Assembly: GCA_024636005.1 (NCBI GenBank)
Contig: JAGXHV010000043.1
Location: forward strand, 1-48,132
Source: Bacillota bacterium
Lineage (GTDB): Bacteria > Bacillota > Clostridia > Peptostreptococcales > Acidaminobacteraceae
Direction of reading: 5' to 3'
Length of the DNA: 48,132 bases
This document shows positions 6,633 through 33,869 of the stretch, piece by piece. The position numbers were made by a program, and so were the translations under genes. Under the pieces are notes generated by a model. The model searched no databases. It was not told the DNA's origin and saw only the letters and a list, made by a program, of their open reading frames with translations. Position 1 is the stretch's first letter. Each line of letters opens with the position of its first letter.

Positions 6633-7964
6633 TTATTCACCTTTGATTTCTTTTATGATGCTGTCTATTTTATTCTTCATTTCGTAATCTGCTTTGATCT
6701 CAGTATTAATTTTGTCACAAGCATGAATAACAGTTGTATGGTCGCGACCACCGAATTCTTCACCGATTTTTGGAAGTGATAAGTCTGTGAGCTCCCTGGA
6801 AATGTACATTGCAATCTGTCTTGGGTAAGCTATTTGCCTGGTTCTCTTCTTGGATTCAAAATCATCTACCTTCATATTAAAATACTCTGCGACAGTCAAT
6901 TTTATGAGATTGACATCCACTTTTCGCGCTTGTGCAGATGAGAATATGTCCTTAAGGGCTTCGTTGACCAGTGTAATGTCAACTTCCTTTTTAGTAAGTG
7001 ACGCATAGGCCACTACTCTATTGAGCGCACCTTCAAGTTCTCTGATGTTGGATTTGATTTTTGTGGCTATGAACTCAAACACTTCATTCGGAATGTCCAC
7101 ACGATCTCTTTCAGATTTTTTTCTAAGAATAGCGATACGTGTTTCGAAGTCTGGAGCTTGAATATCCGATATGAGTCCCATTTCAAATCTTGAACGAAGT
7201 CTATCTTCTAATGTAGGAATTTCTTTTGGAGGTCGATCAGATGAAACGATGATTTGTTTATTGGCTTCATAAAGGGCATTGAATGTATGGAAAAATTCCT
7301 CCTGTGTTCGCTCTTTACCGGCAATGAATTGAATATCATCCACTAGGAGAACGTCTACTGTTCTATATTTGTTTCTGAATTCTTCATTTTTATCATCTTT
7401 AATGGAATTGATTAGTTCATTAGTGAATTTTTCACTAGAGACGTAAAAAACCCTGGAGTTTTTATTCTGTGAAAGAATGTAATGGCCAATGGCATGCATC
7501 AAGTGAGTTTTTCCGAGTCCAACACCACCGTATAAGAAAAGGGGGTTATATGCCTTTGCAGGTGATTCGGATACGGCGAGTGATGCAGCATGAGCAAACC
7601 TGTTGCTGTTGCCAACTACAAATTCATCAAAGGTATATCGTGGATTAAGATTGTTGTTTTCAAAAAAATCACCTATTTGAATGTCACGTTGCTTCTTGAG
7701 CTCGATGGAATTCTCTTCAGGAATGATATACTTGATAATGTAGTCTTGATTGGTGATGTGCTTGATTGTGTTTTTGATGAGATCGTTGTATCTGTTTTCA
7801 AGTACATTTCTGTTGAGATTGCCAGTCGTTTGAAGAATCAGCGTGTTCCCTTCGATTGCGATAGGATCTATAGTCTCTATCCATGTGCTGAAACTGACAG
7901 TCATAAGTTCGTTGCGCATGATTTCTCGAGCTTGGTCCCATATGGTGATTAATTGGTCGTCCAT
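6633..7964 (-). CDS. dnaA: Chromosomal replication initiator DnaA
   Basis: AAA+ protein that binds DnaA boxes and opens oriC. 443 residues. Domain I is at the N-terminus ([25 protein letters not shown]). Domain III has Walker [16 protein letters not shown] at about 146-160, Walker [13 protein letters not shown] and the sensor region [15 protein letters not shown]. Domain IV ends with the DnaA signature [15 protein letters not shown], which reads the box. The linker (domain II) is short. ATG start with AGGAGG upstream. DnaA boxes on both sides of the gene also suggest autoregulation. Confidence 0.98.
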
Positions 7965-14836: not shown

Positions 14837-15613
14837 ATGGGCAAATCGATAGCAATTTTCAATCAAAAAGGCGGAGTAGGCAAAACAACGACAGCTGTCA
14901 ATTTTTCCGCAGCATTAGCAGAGAAAGGTAAACGAGTCCTATTGATCGATAACGACCCTCAAGGTAACCTTACGAGTGGCGTTGGTGTTGATAAAAATTC
15001 ACTAGAAAAATCAATTTATCATGTACTGATCAATGAAGCGTCCATTGAAGATGTCATTCTTCATACTAGTTTTGAACGTTTGGATATTTTACCAGGTAGC
15101 GTTGATTTGGCTGGTGCCGAAATTGAACTCATTGATTTTGAAGATCGTGAGTTTTTACTCAAGAAGCAAATTCTTAAAGTAAAGGATGCATACGATTATA
15201 TTATTGTCGACTGTCCCCCTTCCCTCGGATTATTGACCATAAATGCACTTGTCGCGGTAGATAGTGTATTGATCCCCATTCAGTGTGAATATTATGCTCT
15301 TGAAGGTGTTAGCCAGTTGGTCAATACTTTCAATCTTGTAAAAAAGAGTATTAATTCCAATCTAGAAATACAAGGTGTATTATTGAGTATGTTTGATGGA
15401 CGTACCAATCTTTCTATTCAGGTTGTTGAGGAAGTAAAAAAGTATTTTAAACAATTGGTCTATTCGACTATCATTCCTAGAAATATAAGACTAGCTGAAG
15501 CACCAAGTTTCGGTCTACCTATTATTCACTACGACCGAAAGTCTAAGGGTGCAGAATCATATTTGGAATTAGCCGATGAGTTTCTAGAGTTGGAGGAAGA
15601 GAATGAGTATTAA
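14837..15613 (+). CDS. parA: Chromosome partitioning ATPase ParA/Soj
   Basis: Cytoplasmic/nucleoid ATPase that works with ParB-parS in origin segregation and, in B. subtilis, controls DnaA. 258 residues, the short chromosomal type without an N-terminal HTH. The deviant Walker A FNQKGGVGKTTTAVNF is at residues 8-23, switch I DNDPQGNLTSG at about 39-49, and Walker B DYIIVDCPPSLGLL near 120. ATG start with AGGAGG 4-5 bases upstream. A TATAAT at 14801-14806 may be its promoter, but no good -35 is seen. The end overlaps parB by 11 bases. Confidence 0.96.
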   Translation: MGKSIAIFNQKGGVGKTTTAVNFSAALAEKGKRVLLIDNDPQGNLTSGVGVDKNSLEKSIYHVLINEASIEDVILHTSFERLDILPGSVDLAGAEIELIDFEDREFLLKKQILKVKDAYDYIIVDCPPSLGLLTINALVAVDSVLIPIQCEYYALEGVSQLVNTFNLVKKSINSNLEIQGVLLSMFDGRTNLSIQVVEEVKKYFKQLVYSTIIPRNIRLAEAPSFGLPIIHYDRKSKGAESYLELADEFLELEEENEY

Positions 15614-16484
15614 AAAAAGTGGATTAGGAAAAGGTCTTGGTGCTCTTATCCCATCAGAAGCTATGCAAAATATTGAAAAGAATATTAATGAGCATGGAGA
15701 GTTAATTCAAGAAATTGATGTCAATCTTATTATTCCGAATAAGGATCAACCTCGTAAACACTTTGACCAAGAAAGAATCGCCTCACTTGGAGATTCCATT
15801 TCTGAGCATGGATTAATACAACCAATCGTATTAAAAAGGAATGGCAGTTTTTATGAAATAATAGCAGGTGAAAGAAGATGGCGTGCCACTAAACATCTAG
15901 GTGTAAAAAAAATCGCATCAATTATCAAGGATGTTGATGATTTTACCATAGCACAACTCGCTTTGATTGAAAATGTTCAGCGTGAAGACTTAAATCCAAT
16001 TGAAGAAGCTATGGCTTATCATAAATTAATTGACGAATATAAGATAACACAAGAAAAGCTCAGTAAAATTGTAGGTAAGAGCAGATCTTACCTGACGAAT
16101 ACCATGCGATTGATGAAGCTTGAACCATTTATACAAGATGGTATTGTTGGCGGCACCATATCTAATGGACATGGTAGAGCTTTATTGGCACTTGAAGAGC
16201 CTAAAAAGCGCAAAATGGCATATGATAAGATAGTTTCTGAAGCTTTCAGTGTTCGCATGACTGAAGATTTGGTTAAAAATTTTGAAAAGTATTTTAAGGA
16301 ACGTACGACAACTACTAAACCATATAATAAGTTAAGAGAGATTGTTAATTTAGAAGATGAATTATCTGTTTCATTTGGTACTAAAGTAACTATAAAAGAA
16401 TCTCAAGGTAAGGGAAAAATATTGATAGATTTTTATAATATTGATGATTTAAATAGAATTATTGATTTGATCAATAAGCAATAA
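15603..16484 (+). CDS. parB: Chromosome partitioning protein ParB/Spo0J
   Basis: DNA-binding CTPase of the ParB family that loads at parS and slides along DNA, recruiting SMC. 293 residues. The opening KSGLGKGLGALIP is typical of ParB. The CTP-binding ParB box IIAGERRWRATKHLG is at about 95, followed by QLALIENVQREDLNPIEEA and the HTH region ITQEKLSKIVGKSRSYLTNTMRL. The C-terminal dimerisation domain is present. Its stop codon lies immediately before a perfect parS site at 16485. Confidence 0.97.
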   Translation: MSIKKSGLGKGLGALIPSEAMQNIEKNINEHGELIQEIDVNLIIPNKDQPRKHFDQERIASLGDSISEHGLIQPIVLKRNGSFYEIIAGERRWRATKHLGVKKIASIIKDVDDFTIAQLALIENVQREDLNPIEEAMAYHKLIDEYKITQEKLSKIVGKSRSYLTNTMRLMKLEPFIQDGIVGGTISNGHGRALLALEEPKKRKMAYDKIVSEAFSVRMTEDLVKNFEKYFKERTTTTKPYNKLREIVNLEDELSVSFGTKVTIKESQGKGKILIDFYNIDDLNRIIDLINKQ

Positions 16485-16500
16485 TGTTTCACGTGAAACA
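16485..16500. promoter_or_regulatory. parS: parS site 1
   Basis: TGTTTCACGTGAAACA, the full 16-bp consensus palindrome bound by Spo0J/ParB in Firmicutes. It begins at the base after the parB stop codon. Confidence 0.97.
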
Positions 16501-16528
16501 TAGTTCGTGTTTTGAGCTATGTTTTTTT
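16496..16528 (+). terminator. Terminator of parAB, nested between two parS sites
   Basis: AAACATAGTTC (16496-16506) pairs with GAGCTATGTTT (16514-16524) as an 11-bp stem with one G-T pair, followed by T residues to 16528. The first five bases of the stem are also the last five of parS site 1, and the T-run touches parS site 2. Confidence 0.85.
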
Positions 16529-16543
16529 GTTTCACGTGAAACA
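16528..16543. promoter_or_regulatory. parS: parS site 2
   Basis: A second perfect TGTTTCACGTGAAACA, 43 bases (about four helical turns) from the first. It overlaps the likely -35 box of the following gene. Confidence 0.97.
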
Positions 16544-17482: not shown

Positions 17483-17592
17483 TTACCATATATTGTAAAA
17501 ATAATGACATCTGAAATAAGAAAAAATTGTATTCTAATACTAAGTTTCGATAAAACAAGAAAAATCAATACAGAGAGAATATGAGGCTTTTG

Positions 17593-19017
17593 ATGAGTAC
17601 TATGAATTTAAAGGACGCAAAATATCATTTTATAGAATCAGGCAGGTTAAATCGAAATGTGGTCAGAGATGACATTTCAATTTCATGGTATAAATGTAGA
17701 TTGAGTCAATTGTCTATTGATCATGATGTTATTATTTGCCAAAACAATAAAAAAGCAAAAACGATCAATAAACTTGATCCAGGTTTTATTGATTACTTAG
17801 ATTCCATAATTTCTGTTTCATACGATTTTGTAATTGCAGACCAAAATCACAGTGTGATCTATCAAAGAAAAGATAATCAATTTATTAAATCCATTACATG
17901 TATAGAGGAACTCTGTATAGGAACAAATGCTGGTGCATTAGCGCTTAAAATGGGAAACGATCAAATTGTGATGAAACATGAGCATTATCTCAATTTATGG
18001 TCAGAATTGTTCTCTTTTGGTATTCCGATTCGTGAAGAAGATGACATGATAGGTGTCATTATGTTAGTTGCTGATTTTCAGCCAACAGAAATGGACGTTA
18101 CTGTACTAAAGGAAAAATTAAAGAAATTTGAAAAGCGTAGAACCAAGACAGTGGAAGTTGAAATGAAAGAACTAAATTTTGAAGATTACTTTGTATATCC
18201 CGAAAAATATAAGGACTCATTTATTCAGAGTTTAAATAGACTTTCAGTGATCAATACACCGGTAATGATAATGGGTGAAAGAGGATCAGGAAAAACAACA
18301 CTCATTTGGTATCTATGTCTGACTAATGGATTGTCACCATATTTCATAAATGGGAATAATATACCTAGAACAATAGAAACGGAGATAATAAGAAAGGCAT
18401 TGTATCAATATGACACAGTCGTCATTGAGAATTTTGAAGCTCTCTCATCGGAGAATAAGCAACTGTTAACTGCTTACACTGAAGAAAAAATCATAAGTAA
18501 AACAAGCGAAAAATTCTGTAATTACAGTGCACACAACATAATTCTGACAACAGATTACATCTCAGAAGAACAATGTGACAAAATAGATTTGAAATTGATG
18601 AGTCGGTTTTCAGTAAATACACTTAAGCTCAAAAATCTTGATACATTTAAGCAAGATTTTGAATCTATATTGAACAAAATGCTGGATAGATACGAATTGC
18701 GTATTACTGATGACGCTGCTGAAGTTCTTGCAAGAAGCAATGAGATCAAAACATTTCGAGACTTATCAGAGTACATCGAAAGTTTAAAAACCAAACATAA
18801 AGAGAATCGAAGCGTTGATGTTGCGGATCTGATCTATAAGAAAGAAACCCATATGCATTCACTGGAAGAACAAGAGAAGAGGTATGTCGGTTACGTATAT
18901 GAACGAATGGAAAACAATATTTCAGCCACTGCTGAGGTGTTGAAAATAGGTAGAAGCACACTTTACCGAAAGCTTGAAAAGTATCATATCGATACAATGG
19001 ACAAAAATTCAAAATGA
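17593..19017 (+). CDS. NtrC/AcoR-like regulator with degenerate AAA+ domain and no GAFTGA loop
   Basis: Likely transcription factor of about 474 residues. The N-terminal half resembles the sensor part of AcoR/FhlA-type activators: ISISWYKCRLSQ at about 29 and a GAF-like segment with IEELCIGTNAGALAL near 104. The middle has a clear Walker A (GERGSGKTTL, about 228-237), but Walker B reads VVIENFEAL instead of FLDEIGEL, and I find no GAFTGA motif, which contacts sigma-54 in true bacterial enhancer-binding proteins. The C-terminus has a Fis-type HTH (NNISATAEVLKIGRSTLYRKL). It therefore probably regulates without sigma-54 remodelling, or represses. I prefer ATG 17593 because GAGG lies 6 bases before it; ATG 17581 is possible. 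Confidence 0.75.
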   Translation: MSTMNLKDAKYHFIESGRLNRNVVRDDISISWYKCRLSQLSIDHDVIICQNNKKAKTINKLDPGFIDYLDSIISVSYDFVIADQNHSVIYQRKDNQFIKSITCIEELCIGTNAGALALKMGNDQIVMKHEHYLNLWSELFSFGIPIREEDDMIGVIMLVADFQPTEMDVTVLKEKLKKFEKRRTKTVEVEMKELNFEDYFVYPEKYKDSFIQSLNRLSVINTPVMIMGERGSGKTTLIWYLCLTNGLSPYFINGNNIPRTIETEIIRKALYQYDTVVIENFEALSSENKQLLTAYTEEKIISKTSEKFCNYSAHNIILTTDYISEEQCDKIDLKLMSRFSVNTLKLKNLDTFKQDFESILNKMLDRYELRITDDAAEVLARSNEIKTFRDLSEYIESLKTKHKENRSVDVADLIYKKETHMHSLEEQEKRYVGYVYERMENNISATAEVLKIGRSTLYRKLEKYHIDTMDKNSK

Positions 19018-19047: not shown

Positions 19048-19079
19048 AGTGTCCGGTGATTAGATTGGACACTTTTTTT
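19048..19079 (+). terminator. Terminator after the NtrC-like gene
   Basis: AGTGTCC (19048-19054) pairs with GGACACT (19067-19073) over a 12-base loop, followed by seven T residues. Confidence 0.85.
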
Positions 19080-19280: not shown

Positions 19281-19309
19281 TTGAATAGTAAAGCTTTTTT
19301 TTGTAGAAT
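19281..19309 (+). promoter_or_regulatory. Probable sigma-A promoter of the 19394-21591 operon
   Basis: TTGAAT at 19281-19286 and TAGAAT at 19304-19309 with 17 bases between. Transcription would start near 19316, about 78 bases before the first start codon. Confidence 0.55.
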
Positions 19310-19352
19310 AGAAATAGAGAAGAAAAAAGCTTAAATCAAGCGAATTAGGACA

Positions 19353-19374
19353 TTAACAGTAAATTTACTGTTAA
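19353..19374. promoter_or_regulatory. Perfect 22-bp palindrome, candidate operator or centromere-like site
   Basis: Half-site TTAACAGTAAA is followed at once by its exact complement TTTACTGTTAA. It lies about 37 bases after the predicted transcription start and 19 bases before the first codon of an HTH protein gene. With no spacer it would make a poor RNA hairpin, so a dimer-binding DNA site is more likely. One of the two downstream HTH proteins, or the NtrC-like regulator, is a plausible ligand. Confidence 0.6.
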
Positions 19375-19393
19375 CTGTTGGGGGTGATTGATA

Positions 19394-19840
19394 TTGTATA
19401 AAGTCAGTGAAGTTGCTGAAGTGATAGGCGTGGAAAAGACAGAAATATTTGAAAAAATGATCACACATAAGACATTGATGGATCCAAACATCCATAAAAA
19501 GGATGGAGTAACCTATTTTGATGAACGAGGATTAGAAATTCTTAAGACTTTGTTCTCTAAAGACATATCAAGTTCACCAAGTGACTTCGACAACTTCAAA
19601 TTTGAACAACAAAATGACTCGATTAAGAAAAATAGACCTTTGTCCAAATTTGAAAGGGACAGAAAAATACTGATCGATAAAATGGATATTTTAAAAAATG
19701 AACTGATGAATTTAGATATGGAATTGAAACTAAAAGATGAAATGATTCTTAAGTATCAAGTTAAGGTGAATGAAGACATTGAAGCTTTGAATCGATTTCA
19801 ATATGCTTTACTTAAAAAAATAGAAAGAATTGTGGAGTGA
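19394..19840 (+). CDS. HTH plus coiled-coil protein (first of a tandem pair)
   Basis: 148 residues, not assigned to a named family. The N-terminal 60 residues look like a MerR/excisionase-type helix-turn-helix with wing (YKVSEVAEVIGVEKTEIFEKM ... GVTYFDERGLEILKTLF). A polar linker follows, then a charged coiled coil from about 90 to the end (KMDILKNELMNLDMELKLKDEMILKYQVK). This layout resembles RacA of B. subtilis and DUF536/RepB-type plasmid proteins; no homology is proven. The start is TTG 19394, chosen because GGGGGTG lies 7 bases before it and it matches the start of the next, paralogous gene; TTG 19388 is too close to that site. The stop is 4 bases before the next gene. Confidence 0.75.
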   Translation: MYKVSEVAEVIGVEKTEIFEKMITHKTLMDPNIHKKDGVTYFDERGLEILKTLFSKDISSSPSDFDNFKFEQQNDSIKKNRPLSKFERDRKILIDKMDILKNELMNLDMELKLKDEMILKYQVKVNEDIEALNRFQYALLKKIERIVE

Positions 19841-19844
19841 GCGC

Positions 19845-20234
19845 ATGTATCGTGTTATAGAAGTAGCTAGGATGTTGGGTGTGAGCAAAGTCACCATATA
19901 CAAAAAAGTAAATAAGAATAAAAAACTTTTGAAAAATCACATTCATACCAGAAGCAACATAACTTACATAGACGATGTGGGTGTGCAAATTATCAAGGAG
20001 ACCATTGAGATATCCTCCAGTGGTTTACAAAACGACAACAATGATATTTCCGAAATCAAAAATGAAGTTTTGGAGGATCTCGCAAAAGCAATTGAAATCC
20101 TCAATCACCAGATCCACGTCAAAAAAGAGCAAATCAATATAAAAGACGAAATCATAGAGAATTATAAAACATTAATCAAAAGCAACAGGGGCAAACTGCA
20201 ATATCTAGAAAACAAACTAAATGAAGTCAATTAG
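19845..20234 (+). CDS. HTH plus coiled-coil protein (second of a tandem pair)
   Basis: 129 residues, a diverged paralogue of the gene just upstream: both begin MY(K/R)V.EVA and share IH......TY.D..G..I+K in the same places. The HTH (EVARMLGVSKVTIYKKVN, about 6-23) is closer to the excisionase/MerR consensus than in the first copy. The C-terminal half is a predicted coiled coil with KDEIIENYK, matching KDEMILKYQ in the first copy. ATG 19845 with GGAG upstream. A tandem pair suggests a heterodimer. Role unknown: DNA binding and oligomerisation are inferred from architecture. Confidence 0.75.
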   Translation: MYRVIEVARMLGVSKVTIYKKVNKNKKLLKNHIHTRSNITYIDDVGVQIIKETIEISSSGLQNDNNDISEIKNEVLEDLAKAIEILNHQIHVKKEQINIKDEIIENYKTLIKSNRGKLQYLENKLNEVN

Positions 20235-20246
20235 GAGGGTTAAGCT

Positions 20247-20924
20247 GTGGTACCTAAAAAATCAATTTTCGAGAAACTGGGTTTAATAGAACCTAAAATT
20301 ACTGACACGGAAGAAGAAAACAAGGTAATTGAGACACAAACTGAAAATATTCCTGATCCTGAACACGTTCCTGATCTTAGAAATTTGGATTTTGAGGAAC
20401 AAAAGCCAAAATTTCAAGAAATGACCAAAGTTAAAGAAGAGCCTGTCAGCACACCAAATGAAATCAGCGACAAACTGGATCTGATCATTGGAGCTTATGA
20501 GAAAAACAAAATGCTGACAATCGATGAGATTTATAGAAATGCTCACCTAGATTCTGAAGTCAAAAAAACTATTTTCATGACAGATGTCTATTTGAAAGCG
20601 ATTCCTGAGAATTTACCACTGGATATCAAAAGAGAAACTGTACTCAATATCATGAAGGTCTCAAATATAGGGCTGGATGATTTACTCAGTGATGCTTACA
20701 AAAGAATTGATTCATTGAACACTGTATTGGAAGAGACTGTTGCAACTACCCAAGAAGTATTTGACAGAAATGACGCCACTATCCGTGAACTTGAGAAAAG
20801 AATTGAAGATCTAAAGGATGTCAACAAGAACCGAAAGAAATTCCAGGAAGATCAAAATACTATGATTGAGTATGAAATTCAAAAGATTATCAATTTAGTT
20901 GAATTCGTCAAACCAAAGAAGTAA
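20247..20924 (+). CDS. Cytoplasmic coiled-coil protein of unknown function
   Basis: 225 residues, no family recognised. It has no membrane segment. Parts visible: a short basic/hydrophobic N-terminus (KKSIFEKLGLIEPK), an acidic low-complexity stretch (about 20-70, many E and P), a helical folded region (about 75-150, DKLDLIIGAYEKNKMLTIDEIYR ...), and a long C-terminal coiled coil (about 150-215, TVLEETVATTQEVFDRNDA then RELEKRIEDLKDVNKNRKK). GTG start at 20247, supported by AGGAGGG 7 bases upstream. It lies 12 bases after the HTH pair and 4 bases before the OmpA-like gene, so all four are very probably co-transcribed. A linker between DNA-bound and membrane-bound partners is a guess from position. 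Confidence 0.72.
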   Translation: MVPKKSIFEKLGLIEPKITDTEEENKVIETQTENIPDPEHVPDLRNLDFEEQKPKFQEMTKVKEEPVSTPNEISDKLDLIIGAYEKNKMLTIDEIYRNAHLDSEVKKTIFMTDVYLKAIPENLPLDIKRETVLNIMKVSNIGLDDLLSDAYKRIDSLNTVLEETVATTQEVFDRNDATIRELEKRIEDLKDVNKNRKKFQEDQNTMIEYEIQKIINLVEFVKPKK

Positions 20925-20928
20925 TGAT

Positions 20929-21591
20929 ATGACCAATTACAGATTAACCCCGAGAGGGAAAGTTGTGCTCGGCATTTTCGTGCTACTGCTTGTGGCACTC
21001 ATGGTCAAGGGTGGGATTTACATCAGCGACCTCAATAGAGATGTCGAAGCAGTTTTACCTGAAGATACAATTTCTGAGGTTGAGCCTGAACCGGATTCTT
21101 CCACAGAAATAGAGACTCCGGACCCGGTGGCGACACCTGAAGATCCTGAAGATCCTGTAACTCCTGAAGAGCAAACTGAACCTGAGCAAGAAAAAATTTA
21201 TACGGTTGAAATGCTGGAAGACATGAAACAAATGTTGTTCGTTTTCTTTTTTGAAAAAGACCAATCAGATTTGAATGAAGAGTCTCTTGAGCAACTTGAT
21301 ATTCTCATGGTGGTTCTTAACGCTTATCCTGAGGAGCAAGTAGTGATAGAAGGCCATGTCAATGGTTATCCAAATTTCATCCAAACCGAGGAGAATTTAG
21401 AGCTCAGTGGAGAAAGAAGTCAGGCCATCACAGAATTTTTAATGGATAGGGGTATTGAAAACTCAAGAATAACGGTGTATAATTTTGGTTCAGAGGTTCC
21501 TTATATCAGACAAAGTGCGTTACAACATCAAAACGATCGTGTAACCGTATATTTTAAGAATCACTTTATCAAAGGTGATCTTAACAAGTAG
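20929..21591 (+). CDS. Membrane-anchored OmpA-like (peptidoglycan-binding) protein
   Basis: 220 residues. One N-terminal transmembrane helix (VVLGIFVLLLVALMVKGGIYI, about 11-31) after a basic start, then a Glu/Pro/Thr-rich spacer (about 40-90) and an OmpA C-like domain (about 100-212). That domain shows the expected order: FFFEKDQSDLNEESLEQLDIL, VVIEGHVNGYPN, then LSGERSQAITEFLMDRGI, and NDRVTVYF at the end, with the Asp and Arg positions used for diaminopimelate binding partly matched. The predicted layout is a short cytoplasmic tail and an outer wall-binding domain. Start ATG 20929, 4 bases after the previous stop, so probably coupled; the ribosome site is weak. OmpA-like domains in Gram-positives are best known from flagellar stators (MotB), but there is no motA partner here. 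Confidence 0.8.
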   Translation: MTNYRLTPRGKVVLGIFVLLLVALMVKGGIYISDLNRDVEAVLPEDTISEVEPEPDSSTEIETPDPVATPEDPEDPVTPEEQTEPEQEKIYTVEMLEDMKQMLFVFFFEKDQSDLNEESLEQLDILMVVLNAYPEEQVVIEGHVNGYPNFIQTEENLELSGERSQAITEFLMDRGIENSRITVYNFGSEVPYIRQSALQHQNDRVTVYFKNHFIKGDLNK

Positions 21592-22294: not shown

Positions 22295-22560
22295 GCCGTG
22301 CTAGATGGGGAGGTAGCGGTGCCTTGTAACCTGCAATCCGCTATAGCAGGGTCGATGCTCAGTCGAGGGCGTCCATTGTGGGGTCTGCTCCGAGAAAGTG
22401 ATGTTGATAATTGGGTCCCGCGCAATAGGTACTTGTGAACCCCGTCAGATCCGGAAGGAAGCAGCGGTAAGCTTGAACACCTATGTGCCGCGGGGGTTCC
22501 TGGTTTGAGTCAACTACTTGGATTACGCTTATAATGGTATTTCGAAACTGAGTGCACGGC
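22295..22560 (+). ncRNA. ffs: SRP RNA, long Bacillus/Clostridium type with Alu domain
   Basis: About 266 bases. The 5' end GCCGTGCTAGATGGGGAGGT and later GGTAGCGGTGCC match the Alu domain of the B. subtilis scRNA. The S-domain helix 8 is clear: TCAGATCCGGAAGGAAGCAG around 22446-22466 (GGAA tetraloop and symmetric loop). The 3' end GTGCACGGC pairs with the 5' GCCGTGC. RNA core of the signal recognition particle with Ffh. The ends are estimated from this pairing. It follows tRNA-Ser by 13 bases. Confidence 0.95.
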
Positions 22561-22687: not shown

Positions 22688-24484
22688 TTGGAAAGAAAAG
22701 AGAATATTATGATTCTAAGTTTGCTTTACGGTCTTGTCGTCCTTTCGACCAGTTTAGCTCAACTTGAGTTTTTTGATCTTTCCTACAATACAAGAGGCCT
22801 GTTTGTATTGGTAGGGATTATTGTTCTTGGAGCCTCTGGAATGACTTATGCTATTAAAAGGGAAATCATACATTTCAATAAAAATGTCGGCATAAAAAAC
22901 ATGCTGTTCAAAGATAAAAATAGACAAACGGTCCAAATGAGATTTGAAAACCTACGAAACGAGCAAGAAGAAAAAATGCTCCAAATCACAGATCAAAAAG
23001 AGGACCTTTTGAAGCTTGAAGTCCAGCTGAAAAACATACAAAAGATTTCAGGTTCACTTGAGGCAGAAGTCAAATCACTAAATGAAAAAAAAGAGTATTC
23101 CATTCATTATTTTGATGCGCTTGCAAATCTGTTGCCTCAAAGAATTTGGATTACAGACGCTCATGGGCAGATTCTTTTCATCAATAGAGCATTCAAAAGC
23201 AATGTGAGTAAGGGGAAAAAAATTAATAATCTGATGGATTTTCTGGAAATCTCTGAAAACCAAATGGATATATTCAATAAAAGAAATTTCGGAAGCATAC
23301 TTTACAGGTTCAAAGAAGACAGTGGCAATGTCGCTCTTGAAGGGAAAGCCATAAGGATATTCGAAAACGAAACGGTCAAGTACATCTTATATACATCAAA
23401 GTCCACTGATTTTGAAAAGAAAATGAATCAGAATTACCTTAGGAAAAGCCGAGATCTTCATGTGATCAATGAAATCGGGAAGATAATTATCGGTCGAAGT
23501 ACAATCAGCGGGACACTTCAAGAGGCTCTCGACAAGATTGCATTTTTAAACAATTTGAACTCAACAACAATAAGATTGTTGAACAATAAGAACGAATTAG
23601 AGATAAAAGCGTTAAGTGGTTACAGCAAAGAATTCATACTCAAAAGCAAGGTTGAAGCGGATTTGTCCCATATGGGTTATGCCTACAATGAAAACAGAAT
23701 GATTATTATTAATAAGCCAGAAGACCTTTTGTTTAATGACCCTGATGTCGAGAACGTTGTAAGAAAAGGCGGAAAAGTTGCCTATATACCACTTGCCAAT
23801 TATAAGAATACTTTTGGAGTCATGTCCATAGTCAGTGACAATGAGTTCAATACGGAAAATCTTACATTGTATGAAGCCATATCTATCAATCTCACCATAG
23901 CACTTGAAAAAATATTGCTTTATGATCAACTGAAATCCAATTATTTTAAGACTGTTGAAGCCTTTGTGACCGCATCCGAAATCAATTCTGAATGGTTCAG
24001 TGGACACTCGAGAAGAGTTGCCGAGATTTGCAGGGCGATTGCTGAAAAACTCTATCTCAATGAGCATGAAGTTGATGAAATTTATATGGCCGGACTTTTA
24101 CACGATGTCGGAAAATTGTCATCAGGTCATGAAGATGATAATCATAATGATATTCATCATCATAGCAAGATGGGTCGTCGCATGATAGAAAAAGTAGGTT
24201 TGAGCAGCGATGTGCTGGACGGTATTGAATACCATCATTTAGATTATGATCTGAGCAACAATACAGATTCAAACCTTTCTGAACAACCGTATTATGCTCA
24301 AATCATCAGGATCGCCAACGATTTGGATTGGTTGCTCAACACCGAAGTCAAAATCCATACCATGAAATCCGCACTCGATTCAATGAATGTAAAAAGCAAT
24401 ACGACTTACTCCAGTCAGTTTCTAAAAATACTGGGTGCGATTTTGAATGAAACTGGCAATATAATCCAAAAGGGTTATCAATAA
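22688..24484 (+). CDS. Membrane PAS-GAF-HD protein with degenerate HD-GYP domain
   Basis: 598 residues. Two N-terminal membrane helices (about 8-27 and 37-56), a coiled coil (about 70-135), a PAS-like segment (LPQRIWITDAHGQILFINRAF), a GAF domain (about 260-415) and a C-terminal HD domain. The HD part keeps SGHSRRVAEI, GLLHDVGKL and IEYHHLDYD, but the stretch between is short and His-rich, and the GYP signature that follows HH in c-di-GMP phosphodiesterases is missing. It may be inactive, regulatory, or act on another substrate. TTG start at 22688, supported by GGGAGGTG 8 bases upstream. It pairs with the next gene, which has the same layout. Confidence 0.85.
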   Translation: MERKENIMILSLLYGLVVLSTSLAQLEFFDLSYNTRGLFVLVGIIVLGASGMTYAIKREIIHFNKNVGIKNMLFKDKNRQTVQMRFENLRNEQEEKMLQITDQKEDLLKLEVQLKNIQKISGSLEAEVKSLNEKKEYSIHYFDALANLLPQRIWITDAHGQILFINRAFKSNVSKGKKINNLMDFLEISENQMDIFNKRNFGSILYRFKEDSGNVALEGKAIRIFENETVKYILYTSKSTDFEKKMNQNYLRKSRDLHVINEIGKIIIGRSTISGTLQEALDKIAFLNNLNSTTIRLLNNKNELEIKALSGYSKEFILKSKVEADLSHMGYAYNENRMIIINKPEDLLFNDPDVENVVRKGGKVAYIPLANYKNTFGVMSIVSDNEFNTENLTLYEAISINLTIALEKILLYDQLKSNYFKTVEAFVTASEINSEWFSGHSRRVAEICRAIAEKLYLNEHEVDEIYMAGLLHDVGKLSSGHEDDNHNDIHHHSKMGRRMIEKVGLSSDVLDGIEYHHLDYDLSNNTDSNLSEQPYYAQIIRIANDLDWLLNTEVKIHTMKSALDSMNVKSNTTYSSQFLKILGAILNETGNIIQKGYQ

Positions 24485-24499
24485 ATGAGGTTGAAATAG

Positions 24500-26401
24500 A
24501 TGAAGATGCAATTGAGCTTAAAATTTAATTTAATAACAATGCTTTTCATATTGCTTCCTTTGACGGCAGTGATTTTTATGCAGGAAAGCAAGGCGTTTAA
24601 GCCTGATTTCATAGCCGTTTATATATTTATACAGGGCTTTATTTTCTTTGTCTGGAACAAATTTATGCTCAGCAAAATAAAAAAAAGCAATCGCATCACT
24701 AAGATGCTTTCAATGAATTATGATGAGCAAATTGAGTTCATAAAGGAAATGAAACCCCTTAGCAATGGAGAGGAACGCTTGGTCAAATTGATTCGATCCA
24801 TGCATTTCGCTCAAAGTGTCGGTTCTCAAATGGAAAAAGACTGCATTTTATTAGAAGAGGAAATTAATCGACTCAAAACAGTGACCTATGAACTTGGAGA
24901 AGAAAAAAAGTCGAATATGACTGCATTTGAATTACAAGATGCCATAAACAACAACCTTTCCGGATTTTCAGATCAATTGCTGATCAGGCTGGATTCAAAT
25001 GGTATGGTGCTTGATGTGAATGATCTTTACATATCTAGATTGGGATACTTAAAAGAAGACTGTATCGGGCAATCTTTCACCGATTTCTACCAAGGTGGAA
25101 ATGATGAAAATGGTCCAAAGATCCGTGCACTTTTTCAAGCGAATGAAGAGCCAATGTTTCTAAAAATCTGGTATAAGAATCATAAGGGTGGAGCAATTGA
25201 ATACGTTAGCTTCAAGACCATAGAGCTCTTTGATGGGTCTTTCCTTTGTGTTGGAAAATCCATTGGAGATGAAATCACACTTCAAAGCCGTATTATAAGA
25301 AAGAAAAAGGAATTGGATTACATCAATCAAATCAATTCTGCGTTGATCAGCAACAGAAGTGTAGATGAATTGCTCGAAAATATCGTCAAAAGACTAGAGA
25401 ATCTTTTTAATCTTTCGCTCGGATGTATTTATACTTTAAATGATCAGAATGCCTGGGAACTTGTCACATACACTTCTAATAATTTGTCACGAGAAGAGTT
25501 TTTGGAATTTGAGATCGAACAGAATTTTGATGAGGAATGGCTCAATTCTCTTGAAGTCAAAATTGTGAAACAGGATTCCGAACTTGGCGATTTTGTCAAA
25601 TACATGGCATTTGCACCTCTTGAGGTTGAAGGCAGAATCATCGCAATCATGTGTATAGGACTAGTGCAGGAAATAAAAGTCAATGACTATAACATCCTTA
25701 GAATGTTCAACAATCAAGCTTCCATAGTGGTTCAACGCGCCATCATCTATGAAAAGCTACGAAGACAGTATTTTAATACCATCGAAGCGCTTGTCAGCGT
25801 CATCGAGGCAAAGGACAAATACACAGAAGGTCATTCGAGAAGAGTATCCAGATTTGCAGTTGAAATAGCAAAAAAAATGGGCTATAGTAATGAAGAGATT
25901 GAGAATGTTGAAATTTCAGGTCTTTTACATGATGTTGGTAAAATTGGTATAGATCAGGATATTTTAATCAAGCGAGGCAAGCTCTCTAATGAAGAATATG
26001 AAATTATGAAACTTCATCCAGAAAAAGGGATACAAATATTGGATGCGATCCATTTGCGTGATGATATCCGTGAAGGTATACTTTATCATCATGCACGTTT
26101 TGACCTATTGGGCTATCCGACGCACTCTCTGGAAGAGCTGCCACCGTTCGCAGCGATTATTGGAGCCGCGGATGCGTTTGATGCCATTACATCAGCAAGA
26201 TCCTATTCATACGCTCGCAGTATTGACGATGCTTTGAAAGAATTGATCCAATATAAAGGGAAGCAATTCCATCCCGATATCATTGAGATTATTGATAGGC
26301 TAGTCGAAGAAAATAGAGAGATCATTCAAACCATCATTGACGATCAGCAAGGAGATAGAAATGTCATATCAGGCACTTTACAGACAGTGGCGGCCACTTG
26401 A
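24500..26401 (+). CDS. Membrane PAS-GAF-HD-GYP protein, probable c-di-GMP phosphodiesterase
   Basis: 633 residues. Two N-terminal membrane helices (about 9-26 and 37-53), coiled coil, PAS (QLLIRLDSNGMVLDVNDLYISRLG), GAF (about 270-430) and HD-GYP (about 435-620). The catalytic series is present: EGHSRRVSRFA, GLLHDVGKIGID, MKLHPEKG, YHHARFDLLGYP and ADAFDAITSAR, so hydrolysis of cyclic di-GMP is likely, although the usual HHE..DG reads HHARFDL. ATG with GAGG upstream, 15 bases after the upstream paralogue. The last 41 bases overlap dnaX, and the final residues are read from the dnaX ribosome site and first codons. Confidence 0.9.
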   Translation: MKMQLSLKFNLITMLFILLPLTAVIFMQESKAFKPDFIAVYIFIQGFIFFVWNKFMLSKIKKSNRITKMLSMNYDEQIEFIKEMKPLSNGEERLVKLIRSMHFAQSVGSQMEKDCILLEEEINRLKTVTYELGEEKKSNMTAFELQDAINNNLSGFSDQLLIRLDSNGMVLDVNDLYISRLGYLKEDCIGQSFTDFYQGGNDENGPKIRALFQANEEPMFLKIWYKNHKGGAIEYVSFKTIELFDGSFLCVGKSIGDEITLQSRIIRKKKELDYINQINSALISNRSVDELLENIVKRLENLFNLSLGCIYTLNDQNAWELVTYTSNNLSREEFLEFEIEQNFDEEWLNSLEVKIVKQDSELGDFVKYMAFAPLEVEGRIIAIMCIGLVQEIKVNDYNILRMFNNQASIVVQRAIIYEKLRRQYFNTIEALVSVIEAKDKYTEGHSRRVSRFAVEIAKKMGYSNEEIENVEISGLLHDVGKIGIDQDILIKRGKLSNEEYEIMKLHPEKGIQILDAIHLRDDIREGILYHHARFDLLGYPTHSLEELPPFAAIIGAADAFDAITSARSYSYARSIDDALKELIQYKGKQFHPDIIEIIDRLVEENREIIQTIIDDQQGDRNVISGTLQTVAAT

Positions 26402-30641: not shown

Positions 30642-30679
30642 AAACAGAGCACCAAAGTAAAGTGTAAGCGATACATAAC

Positions 30680-30775
30680 ACGAAAAGGCAAAACCAGTGA
30701 AAACTGGCGACGCAAAGTCTGGAGTCTAAAGTATGGGAGTCATACCATACCACGACCGTCCGACTGCCAAAGGCA
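30680..30775 (+). promoter_or_regulatory. Cyclic di-GMP-I (GEMM-I) riboswitch
   Basis: The sequence follows the GEMM-I aptamer closely: CACGAAAAGGCAAAACC, a hairpin CCAGT-GAAA-ACTGG, the conserved core GACGCAAAG at 30709-30717, GGAGTCTAAAG, a second stem-loop, and a closing CGACCGTCCGACTGCC whose TGCC pairs with the first GGCA. Beyond it, TGCCAAA (30765-30771) can instead pair with TTTGGCA (30781-30787), which touches the ribosome site AAAGGAG (30787-30793) of the surface-protein gene. There is no T-run, so control of translation is more likely than of termination. Whether ligand turns it on or off cannot be told by eye. Confidence 0.92.
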
Positions 30776-30800: not shown

Positions 30801-33800
30801 ATGAAGAGAAATTTGAAGAGGGTTTTGGCGTTATTGTTGACAGCATTACTAGTAATTACAGGTACACCAGTGGTGAGTTTTGCGGAGGATTCTGGTGATT
30901 TGAGTTTAACAGTGGATTCTGTATCCGAAAATGGTGCATCCGTTTCTATTTCAAATAGAACAGAAGATGGATCAGCAGTTGAAGTAGAGCTATCGCCTAA
31001 TCATGGAACCTACCCTTCAACTGAAACAGGAAATACAATCAATTTTACAGGACTAGTTCCATCGACGAGTTATACTGCAACGATAACTGAATCTGTTATA
31101 AGTTCAGAAATTAAACAATATGAAGTTAAACGCACCGGCAACGAAGATGAAACAGATAATTCAGGAAATTATTTTATTAAAATTGGTAATGATAAGATTA
31201 TTGTCGATTTAAATGTTGTATATTACGAAGATGCAAACGGAGAAAAAATATTTGGTGTTTGGTCAGATGATAATAAAGTTAAACACTATACGGATAGAAC
31301 TGAAGAAACAATAACACCTAATATCGCTTCAGCAACATTTACAACACTAGCGGAAACAATTGTGGATGAGTACACCATTTCTTTAGTTGTTCAATATGGT
31401 GGTATCGCAATATATGACTCGGAAGAATTTGATCCTGGAACTTATCCGTTGACAGTTGAGAAAGATGATGAGATATTAGTCAAGTCTTACTCCAATGCAG
31501 GTTACAGTGGTAGTGGTATCTACACTTATACTGTCACTGGAGAAGGAATCGAAGAAATCCGAGTTTCCTTTACCCAAAAAGATCCTGTATATAATCTTCC
31601 ATTCTATGTGACAGATGGATTTTTCTCAGGATACCATTTTGACGGTAGTGATATAACCGCCAAGCACGATCCTAAAGATGATGTGCTTTCAGCAAGTATG
31701 ACTGCTAAAGCAGACAAATCAGAATATGATTTAGGTGATACAGCCACAGTTACACTCACTGTTACTGAGGTTGACGGTGATGATTCCAATAACAAATTGA
31801 ATGAAGTTGATTTTTATGAAAATAGTGTCAACAAAAAAAGTTTTGGTAATGCTCCAGATTCAAACGATGTGATTTATAGTCATTCAATACCAGCAACTGA
31901 AGAGGATCTTGTGTCTGCAGGATTCGGAAAAACTACTGAAGGTACAAATTATGTATACACCAAAACATTGAATTACGATTTGGTTGATCGATATCATAAA
32001 GATGGAGCTGCTGCAATCGTCGCCACTGCAAAGGCAAAACTTGTAGTTCTTATTCCTATTCCAGCTCCAGTTACAAAAACTGTTACAGCGATTTCAGATA
32101 ACACCGCACAAGGAACAGTTTCTCCAGAGACTTCAGTTCTGGGAGTTGGTGAGACCGTTGAACTTGTAGCTACACCGAAGTCTAACTATTTTGCTTTTGA
32201 CTACTGGACCAAAACAGTTGGCGACGACGAGTCACCATATGACGAAGTAGCTACAATCACTGTACCTTCAGAGGATGCAACTTATACAGCTCATTTCAAG
32301 AAAATACTTTTTGACGTTACATTCGATGCTGATATATTCCTGATTGATGGTATGGTTTCAAACACTTCAGGAACAATCGGAAAAATAACTTTTAGTTCAA
32401 ATAATGAGTCGTTTTCACCATTTTCATTAAATGGTAGCGAAACGAAAACAACAAAAATTTCTGCTGTACCAGATGGCACAATAATAACCATTTTAGCCGA
32501 GTCTACTGACCCAGATTATCGCTTCTTAAAATATCAAAACAATAATGAGAACCCTAGACCAGTAACCATCAGCAGCAGCAAAACAAGTGTTGAACCAAAT
32601 GCGGTATTTGGCAAGAAAGATGAATTTGGTGTCACTGCGGATTATGATAAGTTGCATGTAACTTTTGATAAAGAAAGCGCATTTTTGGACGATTCAGAGT
32701 ATACCTTTACCGCAACTCCTCTCGCAAACACAACAATCACAAAAGTAACTATTCAATATGATGAAAACCCAGCTGATGACATTACAACAGATGCATTGAC
32801 AGAAGCAGGATTGATGTCATACTTACTAAAGGGATTTGAGTCGGATGTTCATTTCGTTATCGAATCATTGACACAGTTTGATGTAAACGCTGATTCATCA
32901 GATCCTGCACAAGGTACAGTTTCTCCAACAGCCAGTAGGATCACGGCTGGAGAACCAACTACTGTTGTTGCCACTCCTGCAACTGGATTCGTTTTTTCAA
33001 GCTGGAAACAGATAATCGATGATTCGGAAGTAGTTGTTTCAGAAGAGGCGTCATATACTTTTGATGTCAATGAGAATATTTCCTTAGTGGCGTACTTCAC
33101 AGCAGAACAAGTGGAGGATAATACAACAACTTATACAGTAACATTTGTTAATGCAGACACAGACAAGACAGTACTCAAGACTGAAGAGGTTGAATCTGGC
33201 AAATCTGCAAAAGCACCACTAGTAGATCCATCACTTGATGGTCATACATTTACCGGATGGGATAAAGTATTTACAAACATAACAGCGCCTCTAACCGTAA
33301 AAGCAGAATATTCAAAAAATCCGGAAGTACTAGCAAAGTTCACAGTAACATTCGTAAATGCAGACACAGACAAGACAGTACTCAAGACTGAAGAGGTTGA
33401 ATCCGGCAAAGCTGCAACAGCACCAACAACAGATCCGACACTTCCTGGTCATACGTTTACCGGATGGGATAAAGAATTTACAAATATCGCATCTAATACT
33501 ACTGTAAAAGCTTTATATAGCATAAATGTTGTCGATAATAATAACGACGACGATGACGATGATGAGGAATTGGTAGAATTACCAGTAAGACAAATTCCAG
33601 CACCAAGTCCTCAACTCAGTGAACCGGTAGAATTAGTAGAACTTGAAGAAGAAGAAATAGCTGCTGGACCAGCAATCGTAGAAGAAAAAGAAAAAGAACC
33701 AAAAGAAGAGAAAGAGCCTAAAGAAGAATTGATAACACTTGATCTTCCAAATGAAGCTATTCCAGAAGGAAGCGGATTGCCACAAACAGGTCAATTGCCA

Positions 33801-33869
33801 GTAGAATTATTCGTTGGTCTTGGCGGTTTGATCACAGCAGCAGGCGCATTCCTTAGAAGAAAACAATAA
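30801..33869 (+). CDS. Large sortase-anchored surface protein with InlB-type repeats
   Basis: 1022-residue exported protein, probably an adhesin. A signal peptide (LKRVLALLLTALLVITG ... SFA) is at residues 1-28. The middle is beta-rich, with several bacterial-repeat segments (AQGTVSPETSVLGVGETVELVA and AQGTVSPTASRITAGEPTTV, each with FDYW or FSSWK). Two near-identical InlB_B/Flg_new repeats (TVTFVNADTDKTVLKTEEVE ... HTFTGWDK) lie at about 780-915. An acidic Glu/Pro/Lys-rich stalk precedes the sorting signal LPQTG (993-997), a hydrophobic segment and RRKQ. Class A-type sortase anchoring is expected, but no sortase gene is in the window. ATG with AAAGGAG 7 bases upstream, under a c-di-GMP-I riboswitch. 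Confidence 0.93.
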   Translation: MKRNLKRVLALLLTALLVITGTPVVSFAEDSGDLSLTVDSVSENGASVSISNRTEDGSAVEVELSPNHGTYPSTETGNTINFTGLVPSTSYTATITESVISSEIKQYEVKRTGNEDETDNSGNYFIKIGNDKIIVDLNVVYYEDANGEKIFGVWSDDNKVKHYTDRTEETITPNIASATFTTLAETIVDEYTISLVVQYGGIAIYDSEEFDPGTYPLTVEKDDEILVKSYSNAGYSGSGIYTYTVTGEGIEEIRVSFTQKDPVYNLPFYVTDGFFSGYHFDGSDITAKHDPKDDVLSASMTAKADKSEYDLGDTATVTLTVTEVDGDDSNNKLNEVDFYENSVNKKSFGNAPDSNDVIYSHSIPATEEDLVSAGFGKTTEGTNYVYTKTLNYDLVDRYHKDGAAAIVATAKAKLVVLIPIPAPVTKTVTAISDNTAQGTVSPETSVLGVGETVELVATPKSNYFAFDYWTKTVGDDESPYDEVATITVPSEDATYTAHFKKILFDVTFDADIFLIDGMVSNTSGTIGKITFSSNNESFSPFSLNGSETKTTKISAVPDGTIITILAESTDPDYRFLKYQNNNENPRPVTISSSKTSVEPNAVFGKKDEFGVTADYDKLHVTFDKESAFLDDSEYTFTATPLANTTITKVTIQYDENPADDITTDALTEAGLMSYLLKGFESDVHFVIESLTQFDVNADSSDPAQGTVSPTASRITAGEPTTVVATPATGFVFSSWKQIIDDSEVVVSEEASYTFDVNENISLVAYFTAEQVEDNTTTYTVTFVNADTDKTVLKTEEVESGKSAKAPLVDPSLDGHTFTGWDKVFTNITAPLTVKAEYSKNPEVLAKFTVTFVNADTDKTVLKTEEVESGKAATAPTTDPTLPGHTFTGWDKEFTNIASNTTVKALYSINVVDNNNDDDDDDEELVELPVRQIPAPSPQLSEPVELVELEEEEIAAGPAIVEEKEKEPKEEKEPKEELITLDLPNEAIPEGSGLPQTGQLPVELFVGLGGLITAAGAFLRRKQ
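33135..33492 (+). repeat. Two direct repeats inside the surface-protein gene
   Basis: Copies start at 33135 and 33342, 207 bases (69 codons) apart, each about 150 bases. The first 60 bases, from ACAGTAACATT to GAGGTTGAATC, differ at only a few positions, so this is a recent in-frame duplication of the InlB-like module. Confidence 0.85.

Follow-up and report, generated by a model that had tools for sequence, protein, structure and literature searches.

Relation to described segregation and tethering proteins

The described systems closest to the one reported here are pSK1 Par, RacA, RocS and TubY. In the relevant parts of PMC11500499, pSK1 Par is a winged helix-turn-helix (wHTH) protein with a coiled coil and a disordered C-terminus, RacA acts in chromosome tethering, and RocS combines a MerR-type wHTH with a coiled coil and needs membrane attachment for chromosome segregation; its authors proposed that RocS tethers DNA to the membrane (PMC11500499). 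TubY, which combines a MerR-like helix-turn-helix (HTH) with a coiled coil, binds membranes as well as a region upstream of the tubRZ operon, according to the part of PMC7762940 that deals with it. Here we compare these proteins with the products of a four-gene operon, hthA-hthB-link-ompA, from a member of the Acidaminobacteraceae, the family of Fusibacter. The operon lies in a stretch of 48,132 nucleotides, analysed as a whole and called the window below, which is contig C56 (JAGXHV010000043.1) of a draft genome of 2.54 Mb that is 77% complete (GCA_024636005.1). Comparison of genomes supports well that the third protein, Link, is paired with a wall-facing membrane protein, and tentatively suggests that the operon ties DNA near the replication origin to the cell envelope.

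HthB, the second protein, shares a MerR-type winged helix and a coiled coil with pSK1 Par (PDB 8csh), a single-protein plasmid partition system. Par is plasmid-borne, whereas HthB is encoded at a chromosomal locus together with Link and a membrane protein; to our knowledge, Par has neither a Link nor a membrane partner. Par binds a centromere located in front of the par gene itself; a conserved palindrome, a candidate binding site, lies upstream of hthA. RacA of Bacillus subtilis (PDB 5i44, 5i41) has an N-terminal MerR-type wHTH and a coiled coil, as has HthB, but works through DivIVA in sporulation, while HthB is encoded beside Link and a wall-facing protein. RocS of Streptococcus pneumoniae (DUF536) contains the same kind of domain and has its own C-terminal amphipathic helix; none was obvious by eye at the C-terminus of HthB, for which an anchor would act in trans. 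The layout of TubY, a protein of type III plasmid partition, is similar to that of HthB, but TubY acts with TubR and TubZ, neither of which is encoded in the block, and inspection of HthB by eye showed neither a lysine cluster nor an amphipathic tail like those of TubY. No description of the gene set was found in the open literature at the level of titles and abstracts; subscription papers lie largely outside this coverage, and absence in print is not claimed.

A conserved operon next to soj and spo0J

The operon and the features with which it is discussed are listed below in window coordinates.

6633-7964, minus strand: dnaA (Pfam)
14837..15613, plus strand: soj/ParA (Pfam AAA_31/ParA and synteny), conserved neighbour upstream
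15603..16484, plus strand: spo0J/ParB (Pfam ParB_N, HTH_ParB and ParB_C, and synteny), conserved neighbour upstream
16485..16500, plus strand: parS site 1, perfect, TGTTTCACGTGAAACA
16528..16543, plus strand: parS site 2, perfect
17581..19017, plus strand: Fis/AAA gene (GAF, degenerate AAA and Fis-type HTH), upstream member of the block
19353..19374, no strand: perfect 22-bp palindrome TTAACAGTAAATTTACTGTTAA, candidate operator or centromere
19394..19840, plus strand: hthA, acidic, diverged MerR-type winged helix and coiled coil (by homology to HthB)
19845..20234, plus strand: hthB, predicted basic, Par/RacA-like MerR-type winged helix and long coiled coil
20247..20924, plus strand: link, 225 residues, GTG start
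20929..21591, plus strand: ompA, cytoplasmic tail MTNYRLTPRGK, one transmembrane (TM) helix, acidic/proline-rich stalk and OmpA-like domain

The four genes are tightly packed, with intergenic gaps of 4, 12 and 4 bp. Both parS sites lie approximately 2.9 kb upstream of hthA, and the distance from dnaA to hthA is approximately 11 kb. A first-pass annotation, made from the letters of the stretch, had described this packing, the two nearby parS sites and the distance to the origin, and the coordinates confirm all three. The start of hthA was taken as TTG at 19394 (alternative start at 19388). Pfam confirmed dnaA, dnaN, rnpA, a YidC-type gene, soj and spo0J in the window.

The order conserved in the family is soj-spo0J-dagK-Fis/AAA-hthA-hthB-link-ompA-tadA. 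Link was present in 23 of the 41 family genomes. All 23 related Link loci examined (22 genomes, with G002 in two pieces; the window is counted besides) had their genes, as far as present, collinear and on the same strand. In 18 loci and the window, that is in 19/23 Link-positive genomes and 11 genera, soj and spo0J were found upstream, 1.0–5.6 kb from Link, so that the four-gene set is indeed conserved together by parAB, a check which the first pass had called for. The contigs of G022 and G024 begin 1.3 and 0.3 kb before dagK, and that of G026 ends just past Link; the 1.3 kb before dagK of the G022/G024 pair held no same-strand frame longer than 40 residues. In G027, the sole single-contig genome, and provided that its contig is circular, Link would lie approximately 13 kb from dnaA.

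An ompA gene directly followed link in 19/23 Link-positive genomes (exceptions: G025, G026, G035 and G036), and OmpA-like relatives, partly MotB-like or short matches, were found in 22/41 family genomes. The HthB profile matched in 22/23 Link-positive family genomes, the exception being G035; in G026, HthB was seen only as a piece at the contig end. Among the 393 genomes drawn from the order, only two Link-negative genomes gave HthB matches, G004 (coiled-coil part only, in a 755-residue frame) and G119 (profile positions 1–118, in a 332-residue frame). As a separate observation, a second ParB-type gene stood in a Noc-like position between rsmG and soj in L055, L067, L069, L070, L071 and L072 and not in the window's genus; the Pfam check of this gene covers the L055 copy only.

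Link and its wall-facing partner

Link consists of an N-terminal motif, KKSIFEKLGLIE, an acidic linker predicted to be disordered, and a C-terminal helical domain. The helical domain is conserved and ends in a 79-residue helix, while the acidic stretch is variable. The structural model, built from a 19-sequence alignment, reached a mean predicted local distance difference test (pLDDT) of 71.8, with residues 16–69 mostly below 50. Members scanned against Pfam, NCBIfam and PHROGs gave nothing better than E 0.0028, which was taken as coiled-coil noise; against PDB sequences the matches were at E 0.025 and worse, with haemagglutinin coiled coils among the matches listed, and a Foldseek search with the model returned no solved relative at E 0.001 or better. 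Link occurred in 28 of 393 genomes of the order, 14 of 391 of the class and 1 of 398 of the phylum (the window's own), these being draws from larger groups. None was found in plasmids, and of 24 pattern matches in viral_contigs none was confirmed by tblastn.

A partner with one TM helix followed Link in 14 of the 17 loci fetched outside the family. It was of OmpA type in L114, L115, L116, L200, L203, L206, L207, L208 and L209, and carried VanW and PG_binding_4 domains in L117, L202, L204 and L205 (with G5 too in 3/4; the L204 protein is shortened by a stop to 350 residues). In L210 a substrate-binding/OmpA fusion was encoded one gene further downstream of Link. No partner was seen in L118 or L201, and L211 was cut by the contig end. 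The Link homologue of L201 (7808-8463 of G532) is split by a frameshift between its N- and C-terminal parts, and no membrane partner adjoins it. In a FastTree phylogeny of the Link C-terminal domain the four VanW-type loci grouped in a single clade (support 0.996), and the exchange of ectodomains was therefore probably one event.

What the partners with unrelated ectodomains (OmpA-like or VanW/PG_binding_4) have in common is a basic cytoplasmic tail directly before the TM helix, mostly YR(L/I/V)TxxGK or AAK. A pattern for this tail, written after viewing the partners, matched 30 of 33 Link partners versus 0 of 157 other open reading frames (ORFs) with an N-terminal TM helix in the fetched stretches, the 190 ORFs including all 33 partners as well as orthologues from related genomes. 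The misses were L060, which has no such tail, and L062 and L200, which are near-matches. Within the same genomes, the tail was found in 4/4 Link-adjacent VanW proteins versus 0/5 other VanW proteins with an N-terminal TM helix, of which L222 (GYKLSVGGL), counted as negative, is a near-match. For this control the start was read for 11 of the 13 places over the cut-off (L225 and L226 left out), and L220 and L224, in which no N-terminal TM helix was visible by eye, were not counted.

The N-terminal motif of Link, the pattern for which was likewise written after viewing the sequences, varied with the partner. It was intact in 27/27 Links with a plain OmpA partner, 0/4 with a VanW partner, 1/2 with a substrate-binding/OmpA fusion and 2/5 without a partner (Fisher p = 4e-6 for OmpA versus VanW plus none and 0.002 for OmpA versus none, uncorrected for relatedness; L201, L211 and the two contig pieces L076/L077 left out for the frameshift, contig end and fragmentation, respectively). 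Where Link lacked the motif glycine and a partner was present, the tail read AK, not GK (L117, L202, L204, L205 and L210); L060 kept the Link motif with a partner devoid of the tail motif. This co-variation is the pattern expected of a binding pair, with few independent lineages carrying the signal. By these comparisons, it is well supported that Link pairs with a membrane protein facing the wall.

Two other ideas about the motifs were set aside. An N-terminal amphipathic helix of Link resembling that of Noc was not adopted, because the hydrophobic moments were low (0.24–0.34 in six examples) and the motif is internal in loci of two families. General specificity of the tail motif for Link is not claimed, given that G016 and G017 encode, away from Link, a small membrane protein with a YRLTKRGK tail (59- and 67-residue open frames). 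The stretches around it (G016:C77:98192 and G017:C97:164812) contained no Link and had similar surrounding gene lengths.

The OmpA-like ectodomain

The ectodomain of the window's partner matched PF00691 (E 7.2e-12; 45.9 bits versus a cut-off of 27.2). In AbOmpA, Asp271 and Arg286 contact diaminopimelate, according to the part of PMC12108004 that concerns this contact. The window protein has Asn at the position of the Asp and keeps the Arg. The alignment positions of both residues were assumed from the GHTD and LSxxRA motifs. Among 29 OmpA partners (L076 and gp250 left out) the Asp was missing in 25 and present in 4, and the Arg was kept in 28, while 3/3 MotB controls from the family kept both. 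The domain had at first been taken as peptidoglycan-binding; its family assignment stands, and the claim was overstated as far as the canonical Asp/Arg pair is concerned. With the Asp mostly absent, contact with the wall is suggested, rather than demonstrated, by the replacement of the OmpA-like domain with VanW, PG_binding_4 and G5 domains, i.e. by the company that the swapped ectodomain keeps.

We also considered that the protein might be a MotB-type stator part and its neighbours motility regulators. MotB models did score against the OmpA domain (PRK08457, E 8e-11), but far below their curated cut-offs (42.1 bits versus 250 for the best). No motA gene lay beside ompA at the locus, and G001, G007 and G032 encoded a separate MotA/MotB pair elsewhere, with a MotB_plug domain and the GHTD/Arg signature kept. 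The pairing with a MotA-type motor that the first pass had named as a way to refute its proposal was thus not found, and this explanation was rejected as highly improbable.

Link in phage G

A Link homologue was also encoded by Bacillus phage G. The profile matched gp246 with E 1.4e-34 in a search of 6 proteins, and the position of gp246 was obtained by tblastn with the Link of L210 (E 1e-8). N-terminal motif and C-terminal domain are each present in gp246, which is flanked by the ABC transporter gene gp245 and by gp247, the counterpart of which in L210 is PspA-like (PF04012, E 2.6e-4, below the cut-off). Beyond gp248 come the OmpA-domain proteins gp249 and gp250, which the OmpA partner profile recognized and in which the N-terminal tail is similar. 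The stretch gp246-gp250 thus has Link and OmpA-type proteins in common with the bacterial block, but no such HTH gene is annotated there, and it contains an ABC transporter, a PspA-like protein and substrate-binding/OmpA fusions. From this neighbourhood, Link appears to occur also in an envelope assembly that has no visible tie to chromosome origins.

The order ABC transporter, Link, PspA-like protein and substrate-binding/OmpA fusion was shared between phage G (L213, 167292-179747) and the bacterial contig L210. Of the 20 phage records with relatives of the fusion, 15 were from Prevotella Lak phages; a term search of the main text of PMC7824862 found no OmpA, PspA or ABC transporter.

HthA and HthB

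HthA and HthB were confirmed as paralogues by profile–profile comparison (hhalign probability 99.0, E 2.6e-18). Their winged helices differ in mean net charge (HthB +5.4 versus HthA −1.6, 21 sequences each), and HthB has a nearly invariant SKVT(I/V)YKK helix where HthA has helices of the VEKTEIFEK type. HthB matched Pfam HTH_17 weakly (E 1.2e-4, below the cut-off), and no HTH match was found for HthA in Pfam. Since the winged helix of HthA is acidic, the DNA-binding HTH proteins number probably one, not two as first proposed, and HthA is, as far as its sequence indicates, probably a non-DNA-binding paralogue of HthB.

The predicted model of HthB (pLDDT 89.3) contained a clear MerR-type winged helix in the order helix-helix-helix-strand-strand-helix, followed by a 64-residue helix. 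Its best PDB match was pSK1 Par on centromere DNA (Z 9.4, root-mean-square deviation (rmsd) 1.2, 53/53 residues, 26% identity) and its second the RacA–DNA complex (Z 8.8, rmsd 2.1, 57 residues; apo RacA, Z 8.0), where, as the tool itself cautions, Z 8–9 is modest for a small domain and Z 7–8 is common. A single MerR regulator reached Z 8.2 with an rmsd of 8.1, and the remaining rows were at 7.5 or below. The fold match was treated as support and not as proof, because the Foldseek E-values were weak (0.017 and 0.16) and Z 7–8 is common. Taken with the charge, the predicted fold supports HthB as a Par/RacA-like DNA-binding protein.

The likeness to RacA in the first-pass annotation thus held for fold and architecture and did not extend to sequence membership. 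NF009646 (PRK13182), which we take to be the RacA model, was not listed for HthA or HthB; in 14 controls it matched B. subtilis alone, below its own cut-off, and it matched nothing in the window's genome. DUF536 was not among the Pfam matches of HthA and HthB at E up to 1, the presence of that model in the library being unchecked. A phmmer search with the HthB winged helix recovered no Par chain, and tblastn with HthB found nothing in phages or the plasmid collection. HthB matched phrog_33852 (function unassigned, E 2.5e-6) and a CII-like PHROG (E 5e-4).

The palindrome upstream of hthA

The palindrome TTAACAGTAAATTTACTGTTAA lies 19 bases upstream of the likely hthA start codon. Paired half-sites were found before hthA in 16/21 family loci (in L066 in reversed order) and were missing in L055, L067, L068, L069 and L073. 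In genome-wide searches with up to 2 mismatches, the palindrome occurred at the cluster in 15/41 family genomes. There were 3 matches elsewhere (G027, G029 and G030), equal to the 3 obtained with the reversed control over the 41 genomes. The 18 Link-negative family genomes gave 0 matches, and the window's genome held no second site even with up to 2 mismatches allowed over 18 bases. Since the palindrome is essentially single-copy, autoregulation fits at least as well as a centromere. In form this local site is an autoregulatory operator; that it might act as a one-site centromere is conjecture. An RNA hairpin was rejected: in G018, G019 and G020 the halves pair incompletely while the outer and inner symmetry is kept, which suggests a DNA site instead.

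The copy number also bears on a signalling role, in which the OmpA-like protein would sense the wall, Link would relay the signal, and HthA and HthB would be held at the membrane or released to act on a regulon. Membrane protein, adaptor and DNA-binding proteins do share one operon, and the acidic winged helix of HthA could be a protein-binding decoy. With one palindrome in the window's genome, however, no regulon is visible through this site, and Link and its partner persist in loci that lack the regulators. We consider such trans-envelope signalling unlikely.

A possible split tether between DNA and the envelope

Our best reading, which we hold with less than even confidence, is that several proteins of the operon together form a split bridge between DNA and the cell envelope. 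Conserved gene order, the Link/partner pairing, the motifs, the ectodomain swap, the predicted fold of HthB and the palindrome are evident from sequence, and we infer the physical contacts, DNA binding at the palindrome, wall binding and any effect on origin positioning. HthB would bind DNA, most likely including the 22-bp palindrome before hthA, which might be an operator and, at the same time, a local centromere-like site approximately 11 kb from dnaA. The coiled coil of HthB, perhaps together with acidic HthA, would join the C-terminal helical domain of Link, and the N-terminal motif of Link would dock on the basic YRLTxxGK tail of the bitopic partner, the ectodomain of which would face the wall. 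The anchor would thereby be provided in trans by a pre-existing module of Link and a wall protein, whereas in RocS and TubY the membrane anchor is part of the protein itself and RacA contacts DivIVA.

Several observations weigh against such a tether, among them the modest fold scores of HthB, the high Z of one MerR regulator, the mostly missing diaminopimelate-contacting Asp and the 5/21 loci without the half-site arrangement, all given above. The palindrome is essentially single-copy, and its position immediately ahead of the start codon is that expected of an autorepressor site. Three genera (G025/G026, G035 and G036) have no OmpA beside Link; in G035 the fetched stretch contained no HTH genes, and in G036 the block was present with no soj/spo0J in the fetched stretch and a sigma factor gene upstream. 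A Fis-type regulator in the conserved block suggests ordinary regulation. Beyond the family, the fetched stretches around Link contained no such HTH genes and no parAB. The picture drawn by the first-pass annotation was right in outline, but the tie to the origin is not intrinsic to the Link/OmpA pair. The core is the module of Link and a wall protein, which a Par/RacA-like protein joins near the origin in the Fusibacter family.

Alternatively, Link and OmpA could form an envelope module with a function of its own, i.e. a wall-anchored scaffold, with HthB and the Fis-type protein as its private regulators at the palindrome and the location near the origin simply inherited. The palindrome stands directly before hthA, with stray matches no more frequent than in the control, a Fis-type HTH protein belongs to the conserved block, and the Link pair occurs in other families with neither HTH genes nor parAB adjoining. 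However, Par and RacA are the two best fold matches of the HthB DNA-binding domain and rank above most MerR regulators; a pair of HTH paralogues that have long coiled coils, one of the pair acidic, exceeds the needs of an autorepressor; and the location next to parAB is kept in 11 genera. We regard the envelope module with private regulators as a real possibility that is less likely than not, and place the tether slightly ahead of it.

Neighbouring features

Two further features of the operon region were obtained by consensus scan only, and the promoter scan gave 13 matches in the region versus a shuffle mean of 11.4, i.e. no excess.

19048..19073, plus strand: terminator-like hairpin after the Fis/AAA gene and before the operon
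19281..19309, plus strand: possible sigma-70 promoter of the hthA operon, TTGAAT-17-TAGAAT (9/12)

Strong conservation in the Fis/AAA protein is confined to its C-terminal HTH, which is nearly invariant, and the AAA part is divergent, or missing in some relatives; L070-L072 (282–336 residues) have lost the AAA part and kept the HTH. The window protein barely passed the Sigma54_activ_2 cut-off (25.9 versus 25 bits). The GAFTGA loop, the signature of the AAA domain of sigma-54 activators, was however present in 0/21 sequences, against a role as such an activator.

Downstream of the operon there is a tRNA-Arg gene. A large bacterial signal recognition particle RNA gene (200 bits; 22296-22559) lies between tadA and a pair of adjacent genes (22688-26401) for HD-domain proteins with PAS/GAF-type N-terminal parts, which are followed by dnaX. 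The first HD protein had a match near tadA in 15/24 family stretches (window included; some cut by contig ends). A c-di-GMP-I riboswitch (71.8 bits; 30677-30771) was found directly 5' of a 1022-residue ORF (30801-33869).

Significance

Origin positioning without a known polar anchor is an open question in many Firmicutes. If the tether reading is true, culturable anaerobes, namely the Fusibacter type strains, would have a link between chromosome and wall that is made of separable components. The finding of more general scope is the Link family. Independently of the tether, this family is unnamed in the libraries searched, follows a clear partner rule (a tail motif with swapped, wall-related ectodomains) and reaches a giant phage. 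Link might be a portable adaptor that plugs cytoplasmic machines into the wall through tail docking and interchangeable ectodomains. In the Fusibacter family, combined with a Par/RacA-like protein and one palindromic site close to the origin, it would serve a passive, ParABS-adjacent anchor between chromosome and wall, a split counterpart of RocS and RacA in which separate chains provide DNA binding, adaptor and wall anchor, and in phage G it would serve an envelope complex of a PspA-like protein and an ABC transporter; we consider this generalization doubtful enough to offer it only as a suggestion about what the family may do.

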